Assembly: GCF_900323885.1 (NCBI RefSeq) | Contig: NZ_OOHJ01000015.1 | Span: 744,001-808,000 of the forward strand | DNA from: [Actinomadura] parvosata subsp. kistnae | GTDB lineage: Bacteria > Actinomycetota > Actinomycetes > Streptosporangiales > Streptosporangiaceae | Length of the DNA stretch: 64,000 nucleotides | Direction of reading: 5' to 3' | In this document: positions 59,495-61,180 of the stretch, piece by piece | Layout of the letters: every line of letters begins with the position of its first letter | Position numbering within the stretch: position 1 is the stretch's first letter | Notes under the pieces: generated by a model | Told to the model about the DNA's origin: nothing | Seen by the model: only the letters and a program-made list of their open reading frames with translations | The model's database searches: none | Translations under genes and position numbers: made by a program

Positions 59495-60355
59495 ATGACT
59501 TCTGTCGCACTTCTCGGAACAGGGCTCATGGGGCTGCCCATGGGCCGCAACCTCGCCAGGGCCGGCCTGCGCGTGAGCGTGTGGAACCGTACCAGGGACA
59601 AGGCCCTGCCCCTTGAGGCCGACGGCGCGGTGGTCGCGCACTCCCCCGCCGAGGCCGTCGAGGGCGCCGACGTGATCCTCACGATGCTCAGCGACGGCGA
59701 CGCCGTGCACGACGCCGTCACCGCCGCCGCCCCCGTCCTCCGGGCCGGGCAGGTGTGGGCCCAGATGAGCACCGTCGGCCTGGCCGCCACGGACCGGCTC
59801 GCCGCCCTCGCGGACCGGCACGGGCTGACGTACGTGGACGCGCCCGTGCAGGGCACCCGGCAGCCTGCCGAGCAGGGCAAGCTCGTCATACTCGCCTCCG
59901 GCCCCGACACGGCCCAGGAGGCGCTGGAGCCCGTCTTCGGGGCGCTCGGGCAGCGCACGCTCTGGCTCGGCCCGGCCGGGGCCGGCACGCGGCTCAAGAT
60001 GGCCACCGTCAGCTACGGCATCTCCCTCACCGCCGTCGTCGCCGAATCGCTCTCGCTCGCCCAGGGCCTCGGGCTCGACCCCGACCTCGTCCGCCAGGTC
60101 GTCACGGGCGGCCCCATGGATTCCGCCTACTTCCAGGCCAAGGCGAAGGCCATCCTGGAGGGCGACTTCACCCCCAGCTTCACCGTCCGCAACGCCGAGA
60201 AGGACACCCGGCTCATCCACGAGGCCGGCGCGGCCGTGGGGGTCCGGCTCGACGTGGTGGCCGCCGCCGGCGAACGGTTCCGGCGAGCGGAGGCGCAGGG
60301 GCACGGGGAGGAGGACATGGCGGCCACGTATTTCGCCAGCTTCGACAAGCCGTAA
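59495..60355 (+). CDS. NAD(P)-dependent 3-hydroxyisobutyrate dehydrogenase-like oxidoreductase
   Basis: Beta-hydroxyacid dehydrogenase of 286 residues. The Rossmann motif is ALLGTGLMGLPMGRNLARAG, the substrate region is VDAPVQGTRQPAEQGKL (usually DAPVSGG), and the catalytic Lys lies in GTRLKMATVSYG. The Asn that normally follows the Lys by four positions is replaced, and with the altered DAPVSGG motif this suggests an imine- or succinic-semialdehyde-reductase-like branch with unknown substrate. The stop lies 13 bp before the first RNA element. Confidence 0.9.
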   Translation: MTSVALLGTGLMGLPMGRNLARAGLRVSVWNRTRDKALPLEADGAVVAHSPAEAVEGADVILTMLSDGDAVHDAVTAAAPVLRAGQVWAQMSTVGLAATDRLAALADRHGLTYVDAPVQGTRQPAEQGKLVILASGPDTAQEALEPVFGALGQRTLWLGPAGAGTRLKMATVSYGISLTAVVAESLSLAQGLGLDPDLVRQVVTGGPMDSAYFQAKAKAILEGDFTPSFTVRNAEKDTRLIHEAGAAVGVRLDVVAAAGERFRRAEAQGHGEEDMAATYFASFDKP

Positions 60356-60368
60356 CCGCTAGGGTTTC

Positions 60369-60451
60369 AGCAGGCCGCCTTCCTACGGGGAGGATGGAAG
60401 TGGGCCCGGGTGTACTGCCGGAATTGACAGGAGCCCGGGCTTCGCGCTTTC
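60369..60451. ncRNA. Structured RNA element, copy 1 (candidate DUF3800-associated RNA)
   Basis: Layout: a 44-nt conserved arm (60369-60412), a variable 17-nt middle, then a 22-nt conserved arm (60430-60451) containing GAGCCCGGGC and GCGCTTTC. The first arm holds a hairpin CCTTCC-TACGG-GGAGG, and GCCCGGG near its end pairs with CCCGGGC of the second arm. Copy 2 begins 118 bases later with the same layout. Strand is uncertain; the stems form on either. Structured RNA motifs next to DUF3800 genes have been reported from comparative genomics; membership here is inference. Confidence 0.55.
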
Positions 60452-60486
60452 CAGGTGACTATTCGTGTGCGACCGGGTACAGTGAG

Positions 60487-60567
60487 AGCAGGCCGCCCTC
60501 CTACGGGGGGGATGGAAGTGGGCCCGGGTGACCCGCCGGACGACGGGAGCCCGGGCTTCGCGCTTTC
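60487..60567. ncRNA. Structured RNA element, copy 2 (candidate DUF3800-associated RNA)
   Basis: Same two arms (60487-60530 and 60546-60567) around a different 15-nt middle. Differences from copy 1 in the hairpin keep pairing: CCCTCC-TACGG-GGGGG against CCTTCC-TACGG-GGAGG, replacing U-G by C-G and U-A by U-G. The second arm ends inside the stop codon of the DUF3800 gene, so on the minus strand the element is the immediate 3' untranslated region of that gene. Confidence 0.55.
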
Positions 60568-61135
60568 ACTGGATCTCTTGTTCCCGCACCAGCATGCCGG
60601 CTTCCAACTGGCTCCAGAATCTTGGATCACCACGCTCCGCGAGGACCTTCGCTCCGGCGATAATGTCCGGCAACCACAGCAAGGGCTCCAACACCGGATC
60701 GCTCCACGACAGACGCAACCGTGGCGGCATCGCGTGGCGACCTTGCAACGCGACGATCAACTTGCGATCCCGACCGTCGAGCAGACTGTCACGACGCTCG
60801 AAGAGCACGTCAACCACATGATGGTCGCCCAACTCCCACAGCAGGCATTCCATACACTTCCGACGCGCTCGTTCCTGGCGCTTCGGATCGAGACCGGTGC
60901 CGAGAATGATGATGCCAGTCGGCTGGAGCCCCGCCACCGCCTCGATGAGCTGCGTTCGGCGCTTGTCGTTCTCATCGTGCCAGTGCAGGCGCAGCTGTCG
61001 GTGCAGCAACAGCCCGCGCAACTCGGCGCGGTAGTGGTCGGCCTGGTGCGGAGCAACGAGCACGGCCGCCATCAGGTACACGCTTCGCGCGAGCACCATG
61101 GACTCATCGACATACGCCGAGAACGGGAGGATCAC
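60566..61135 (-). CDS. DUF3800 domain protein
   Basis: Protein of 189 residues with DUF3800 hallmarks: AYVDESMVLARSVYLMAAVL at the N-terminus (acidic pair at 10-11), ELRGLLLHRQLRLHWHDE, and near the C-terminus PVLEPLLWLPDIIAGA. The family is thought to have an RNase H-like fold with conserved acidic residues and is of unknown function, often in mobile or defence contexts. GTG 61135 has no ribosome binding site, but TAGCAT stands 8 bases upstream. It abuts two structured RNA elements at its 3' end. Confidence 0.8.
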   Translation of the reverse strand: MILPFSAYVDESMVLARSVYLMAAVLVAPHQADHYRAELRGLLLHRQLRLHWHDENDKRRTQLIEAVAGLQPTGIIILGTGLDPKRQERARRKCMECLLWELGDHHVVDVLFERRDSLLDGRDRKLIVALQGRHAMPPRLRLSWSDPVLEPLLWLPDIIAGAKVLAERGDPRFWSQLEAGMLVREQEIQ

Positions 61136-61180
61136 GAGGGATCATGCTAGCCCTCGCAAACACGAAGCGTGATTAAGTCC

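Follow-up and report, generated by a model that had tools for sequence, protein, structure and literature searches.

Organization of the locus

The window, by which we mean the whole stretch of 64,000 nucleotides that was analysed, comes from a 13.6 Mb genome whose nearest named relatives belong to Nonomuraea. This whole genome has a single locus in which copies of a small RNA adjoin a gene for a DUF3800-like protein. Its parts are as follows.

60360–60365, + strand: possible −10 element TAGGGT of RNA copy 1 (sequence reading; the −10 box of copy 2 is equally far from its RNA)
60370–60451, + strand: small RNA copy 1, inner loop CCGGAAUUGA (covariance model R1, 89.0 bits; repeat comparison)
60455–60460, + strand: −35 box GTGACT of RNA copy 2 (sequence reading; GTGAC conserved upstream in relatives; promoter enrichment)
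60478–60483, + strand: −10 box TACAGT of RNA copy 2 (sequence reading; 17-nt spacer to the −35 box)
about 60487/60488–60567, + strand: small RNA copy 2, inner loop CCGGACGA (covariance model R1, 90.6 bits, E = 1.4e-22)
60566–61135, − strand: DUF3800-like protein of 189 aa (PF12686 matched weakly by members of the family; profile comparison with canonical DUF3800)
61144–61149, − strand: −10 box TAGCAT, belonging to the DUF3800-like gene (in 23 of 82 upstream regions TAnnnT stands at the same fixed place)
61160–61172, − strand: operator-like sequence TCACGCTTCGTGT (TNAC-N5-GTNA with its last base changed)

As the preliminary description had stated, the two RNA copies are spaced 118 bp apart and the second ends inside the stop codon of the DUF3800-like gene: its 3′ end (60567) overlaps that codon (60566–60568 on the + strand) by 2 nt. 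The 5′ arms of the two copies are 91% identical and the 3′ arms 96%. The surroundings are ordinary, with hydantoinase A/B genes past 61181 and an NAD-binding dehydrogenase gene that ends at 60355 on the other side. Because the −35 region of RNA copy 1 is poor, this copy may be co-transcribed with the dehydrogenase gene. For RNA copy 2, the promoter-like arrangement GTGACT-17-TACAGT (60455–60483) would place the transcription start at about 60488–60491.

Fold and coding strand of the small RNA

The element, about 80 nt long, consists of a hairpin (P1), an exposed GGAAGU(G) of which GGAAGU is invariant, a long hairpin (P2) carrying an inner stem-loop, and a tail (U)UCGCG(C)UUU. Among 97 homologues from the family set, two-sided changes were found at 12 of 17 base pairs and standard pairs occupy 95% of the aligned cells; the number of two-sided cells (147) compares with a mean of 49 after shuffling and was reached in none of 500 shuffles. 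A second set of 59 mostly more distant homologues gave the same picture, with 16 of 17 pairs covarying and 200 two-sided cells versus 54 in shuffled alignments (0 of 500). Both the CCYUCC/GGRGG hairpin and the bracket GCCCGGG/CCCGGGC, which had been proposed from the window alone, are thus real. An additional closing helix (P0, 5′ GCCGC with 3′ GCG) was rejected, being present in single members only (ACCGC/GCGGU in L034) and out of register across the alignment.

The RNAalifold consensus energy is −22.8 kcal/mol on the RNA strand and −6.6 kcal/mol on the other, and wobble cells on the RNA strand comprise 165 G-U versus 19 A-C. As the wobble pairs are strand-asymmetric and the promoters described below one-sided, selection acts on RNA and not on DNA, and the element is an RNA encoded on the strand opposite the DUF3800-like gene. 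Strand energetics, the G-U/A-C asymmetry and the side on which the promoter lies likewise speak against a 3′ UTR structure transcribed with the gene. In lower-GC hosts the tail turns into a U-tract (GCGUUUUUCU), for which reason P2 probably doubles as a terminator.

The middles of the two window copies had initially been described as unrelated and as a possible guide-like segment. Both turn out to be one and the same inner stem-loop, which reads CUG-CCGGAAUUGA-CAG in the first copy and CCG-CCGGACGA-CGG in the second, and they represent two from a small set of loop types that recur; the middle of copy 1 is found letter for letter in another Nonomuraea (locus L003). Only 23 loop types occur in the 97 RNAs, four of them (AUGGAAU, CCGGACGA, CCGGAAUUGA and AGGGAUAU) account for 72%, and the loop is closed by a covarying stem. 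Such few, conserved and base-paired loops led us to reject a variable guide of the TnpB, IscB or CRISPR kind.

Association of the RNA with DUF3800-like genes

In six close relatives (GTDB) and at 27 further loci of the family, the element lies just past the stop codon of the gene in every case. A covariance model was then derived from 33 copies and run on 251 Streptosporangiaceae genomes (E ≤ 1e-5), yielding 115 RNA clusters, 72 of which adjoin one of 94 DUF3800-like hits. All 72 of these loci are tail-to-tail, the RNA being on the 3′ side of the gene and running in the opposite direction. When 20 of the 22 hits devoid of an RNA were searched again with filters off, 18 proved to have one (23.5–44.7 bits, the next-best background match scoring 15), and the two others are partial matches. 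Altogether, 90 of the 92 DUF3800-like genes examined carry the RNA, invariably tail-to-tail. At the level of genomes, 58 of the 251 contain both partners, the protein occurring in 67 and the RNA in 70 (Fisher p = 5e-35). RNA and protein distances over 73 units are correlated (Mantel r = 0.75, against at most 0.13 in 999 permutations), as expected for a pair that is inherited together. The view that protein and RNAs form one unit is upheld by this co-occurrence, fixed layout and correlation.

The RNA also occurs in many families of the class, as judged from a search of 297 genomes. Outside the family, 37 of 43 protein hits have an RNA within 400 bp, and 36 of these 37 units are convergent; the remaining one is in tandem, its nearest RNA being that of the preceding copy. 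Conversely, a DUF3800-like gene, in some cases a partial copy, is detectable at 25 of the 27 RNA loci found outside the family. Comparing the flanks of DUF3800-like homologues, as had been suggested at the outset, therefore shows the element recurring beside them in the family, the class and on plasmids.

Gene-linked clusters hold one to four RNA copies at the standard threshold and five if laxer hits are counted; 12 of the 72 units have two to four. Some genomes contain many copies of the unit. The entire gene-RNA unit is duplicated in tandem at L115, L181, L184, L172 and L175.

Homologues were present in 64 plasmid records. An RNA scoring above 30 bits was found at 12 of 14 plasmid loci, namely in 7 of 7 from Arthrobacter, Clavibacter, Rhodococcus and Streptomyces and in 5 of 5 from Kocuria, Mycolicibacterium, Mycobacterium and Clavibacter pCM1, while Dietzia and Streptomyces loci show a match of only 17–18 bits at the right place. 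The Kocuria plasmid measures 5.7 kb and has four genes, one of them DUF3800-like. A serine recombinase gene lies directly upstream in pCM1 and in the Mycobacterium lentiflavum plasmid, and ParA adjoins the unit in two others. The sole homologue that a profile search detected on a viral contig carries the RNA as well. No DUF3800-like homologue was found in a phage collection, and a search of viral contigs with the RNA pattern gave no match.

Transcription signals

A sigma70-like promoter precedes 74 of 150 RNAs (5.2 expected), the same pattern being found in 11 of 147 downstream regions and in 1 on the antisense strand. Over the 150 upstream regions, [TC]AnnnT is most frequent between positions −12 and −6 relative to the start of the RNA. 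At two Mycolicibacterium plasmid loci (L231 and L236) the RNA lies downstream of the protein gene on the same strand and has retained boxes resembling a promoter (TTGCAG-18-TAGACT and TTGCGG-18-TAGACT) together with a U-tract. Judged from these sequence signals, the RNA is an independent, trans-acting gene and not an antisense or 3′ UTR element. The mRNA of the DUF3800-like gene is probably leaderless, since a −10 box of the TAGCAT type stands so near its GTG start.

In many units an inverted repeat recurs in the promoters of the protein gene and of the RNA. Exact TNAC-N5-GTNA was found upstream of 28 of 82 homologous protein genes (1.2 expected) and of 24 of 150 RNAs (1.5 expected), so that one regulator may act on both; we take this repeat to resemble a BldD-type operator.

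The DUF3800-like protein

The window protein contains a YVDES motif and conserved residues H51, W52, R89, R91, E113, R115, D123, W154 and D157. It has no Pfam match at E ≤ 1. When 18 relatives were scanned, DUF3800 (PF12686) was the sole Pfam family recovered, weakly (11 of 18 at E ≤ 1, best E = 0.0049) and below the gathering cut-off of Pfam. Profile comparison with canonical DUF3800 by hhalign gave a probability of 85.6% (E = 5.6e-6) over only 44 N-terminal columns, and NCBI names the pCM1 plasmid member a 'DUF3800 domain-containing protein'. On account of the weak PF12686 similarity, the profile comparison and this name, we use the label DUF3800-like; the preliminary assignment as a DUF3800 gene stands to that extent, full Pfam membership being unsupported in the window protein and weak family-wide. 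A sequence search of the PDB with the protein returned nothing significant, and one of the 18 members, from Arthrobacter p232 (L161:1483–2067), weakly matches the PADLOC candidate PDC-M04A (E = 1.2e-4).

Canonical DUF3800 members are RNase H-fold nucleases (PMC10910872, PMC12669027). By analogy with that family, the protein is probably an RNase H-fold nuclease as well, and the conserved D10/E11, E113, D123 and D157 are compatible with an acidic active site. AlphaFold2 models built from a 5-row alignment and from a single sequence reached pLDDT values of only 39 and 50 and were not usable.

RNAs without the protein

RNA clusters devoid of a DUF3800-like gene are common in the family (43 of 115), proteins devoid of an RNA rare (2 of 92). 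The preliminary description had regarded elements standing away from any DUF3800 gene as evidence against a link between the two. Such elements do exist in this number, yet several of them are deletions or remnants of the gene. The hydantoinase site of Nonomuraea, compared in 30 genomes, illustrates this: the protein gene is present in 12, all of which have the RNA, and in none does the protein occur alone. In three genomes (G262, G232 and G228) the RNA is kept and the protein gene is absent, and two of the 12 protein genes (L118 and L123) are broken beside an intact RNA. L110, L112 and L131 represent natural RNA-only strains: here the stretch from the hydantoinase gene to the RNA contains no DUF3800-like gene. 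Several orphan RNAs elsewhere adjoin fragments of a DUF3800-like gene. The intact orphans suggest that some RNAs act without the DUF3800-like protein.

Other orphan RNAs adjoin genes of different nuclease and toxin families: PIN at distances of 13, 8 and 28 nt (L075, L099 and L102), PemK/MazF (L088 and L103), ParE (L081) and NYN (L070). With 55 PIN genes in eight genomes, three among about 40 orphans is, by our estimate, far above chance (Poisson probability roughly 1e-5, assuming about 7,700 genes per genome). Several of these neighbours are at the 8–30 nt spacing of DUF3800, and some have a recognizable protein antitoxin gene upstream.

Clusters of three to five RNAs, spaced 60–1700 nt, were observed at L089:1001–4036, L090:1034–2204, L091:1173–1565 and L092:1428–2361, most of the RNAs having a recognizable promoter-like sequence. 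Spacers in L089 contain a fragment like the small gene that precedes PIN at L075, and the four clusters look like an eroded toxin-antitoxin or defence island. By eye, the orphans at L071, L076 and L082 lie near pairs of helix-turn-helix and DUF397-like genes, which are common in actinobacteria, so that their proximity may be due to chance.

Proposed function and alternatives

We propose, at even odds (a probability of about 0.5), that the RNA is an antitoxin which holds a DUF3800-like toxin inactive in trans and serves the maintenance of plasmids and islands, possibly also defence. Two facing genes would produce the protein from a leaderless mRNA and the ~80-nt RNA from its own sigma70-type promoter. 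The RNA would bind the protein in trans and so keep the nuclease inactive; once the RNA is lost with a plasmid, or depleted when transcription is shut down in the host, the nuclease would be set free. What the data show is the pairing, the strand and the fold of the RNA, the promoters, and that the RNA does not depend on its orientation; we infer that the protein is both a nuclease and a toxin, that it is bound by the RNA and that it is thereby inhibited. We favour this reading because the protein is almost never found without the RNA while the RNA is often found without the protein; because the unit is carried by plasmids, has recombinase and ParA neighbours and occurs in tandem; because there are extra RNA copies per unit; and because other nuclease toxins take the position of DUF3800 beside orphan RNAs. 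Each of these four arguments, from asymmetry, ecology, extra copies and orphan neighbours, is circumstantial. The toxin-antitoxin idea, advanced earlier as a type III-like pair, thus survives as the best mechanism; the type III anatomy does not, the RNA having its own promoter and being convergent and free-standing. No RNA-antitoxin system known to us combines a convergent arrangement with a separate promoter, which counts against the proposal, as do the orphan RNAs of intact structure. A wider proposal is more tentative: the pairs might constitute a new toxin-antitoxin type found throughout the Actinomycetes, in which an independently transcribed RNA of two hairpins counters an RNase H-fold toxin in trans and the scaffold has sometimes been switched to PIN, MazF or other nucleases.

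Alternatively, the RNA could activate rather than inhibit, as cofactor of a ribonucleoprotein effector (a defence or processing enzyme) that requires it for activity. The tight co-inheritance of both partners and the invariant exposed GGAAGU fit this, and DUF3800 nucleases serve as accessories of CRISPR types V-A2 and VI-F (PMC10910872, PMC12669027). However, RNAs outlast the loss of the protein, which is unexpected of a pure cofactor; there is no variable guide, and small cryptic plasmids hold just the unit and a few other genes. We consider a cofactor role somewhat unlikely.

In a cis-acting role of the type I kind, the RNA would regulate the neighbouring DUF3800-like gene, either through antisense transcription or by forming a structured 3′ UTR or terminator; this would account for the nearly constant convergence and the abutting stop codon. 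The two Mycolicibacterium loci argue otherwise: with the RNA flipped onto the strand of the gene and yet behind its own promoter-like boxes, control by antisense pairing was rejected, and neither it nor 3′ UTR control can be the conserved function. In addition, the fold covaries, for which antisense pairing has no need, and the window RNA overlaps the coding sequence by just ~2 nt, so that cis control appears improbable.

Equally little probability attaches to a general small RNA, or a partner of several nuclease toxins, for which DUF3800 would be merely the commonest neighbour. It would explain why orphans lie 8–28 nt from PIN genes at three loci, PIN genes being rare, and near PemK, ParE and NYN, and why many orphans retain fold and promoter; yet outside the family just 2 of the 27 RNA loci of the class search are devoid of a detectable DUF3800-like gene, and several orphans are proven deletions or remnants. 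Very improbable, finally, is a mobile or recombinational DNA hairpin (attC-, REP- or TnpB-end-like) by which the gene would be moved from place to place: multiple copies, arrays, changing neighbourhoods and plasmids would suit it, but strand-asymmetric wobble pairs and one-sided promoters point to RNA, and in Nonomuraea the unit is inherited vertically behind one hydantoinase gene.

If the RNA is indeed an antitoxin, it would oppose an RNase H-fold toxin in an architecture outside the numbered types, and there is a real chance that the unit defines a new type of RNA antitoxin. The pair is compact, plasmid-borne and multi-copy; its transcription signals are clear, and orphans as well as orientation flips occur naturally. 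The question of whether the RNA inhibits, activates or regulates can now be reduced to a simple experiment on this pair.

Comparison with known systems

Earlier work had reported structured RNAs next to DUF3800 genes without assigning them a function. The association was noted again with DUF3800 nucleases in CRISPR loci (PMC10910872). Our RNA family, the protein subfamily, the arrangement of two convergent promoters, the occurrence on plasmids and the pattern of orphans were not found described in the literature consulted or in Rfam. The suspected membership of an Rfam DUF3800 motif was not borne out by covariance-model searches: neither DUF3800 motifs nor riboswitches nor any other Rfam family matched in the window (E ≤ 5), at 15 relatives (E ≤ 3) or at further loci (E ≤ 1), and the same search recovered DUF3800-XI at a canonical DUF3800 gene (L199:2111–2159) as a positive control. 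The Rfam motifs DUF3800-I to -XI (e.g. RF02969, RF02968 and RF02975) resemble ours in being structured RNAs of unknown function beside DUF3800 genes. The copy of DUF3800-XI at L199, however, is 48 nt long and lies immediately upstream on the strand of the gene, whereas our RNA measures ~80 nt and lies at the 3′ end, almost always in convergent orientation. It is absent from canonical DUF3800 loci. The protein resembles PF12686 weakly in sequence and shares with it YVDES and a conserved Asp late in the chain, within [LM]xDxxA, but is smaller (~190 aa) and has conserved HW, R-x-R, E-x-R and LLW-x-x-D of its own.

If our proposal is right, the unit resembles the type III systems ToxIN, CptIN and TenpIN, in which an RNA antitoxin opposes a ribonuclease on plasmids and islands. 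It differs from them in that no tandem-repeat antitoxin stands upstream in a toxin operon, the RNA instead having two hairpins and its own promoter, and in the protein family, since PF12686 alone within Pfam, and not ToxN, CptN or TenpN, matches the 18 members. With type I systems it shares a small RNA on the strand opposite the protein-coding gene. In contrast to those, antisense overlap is not needed, as the same-strand RNAs of L231 and L236 indicate, and the protein is a soluble-type, enzyme-like polypeptide of 189 aa rather than a small hydrophobic peptide.
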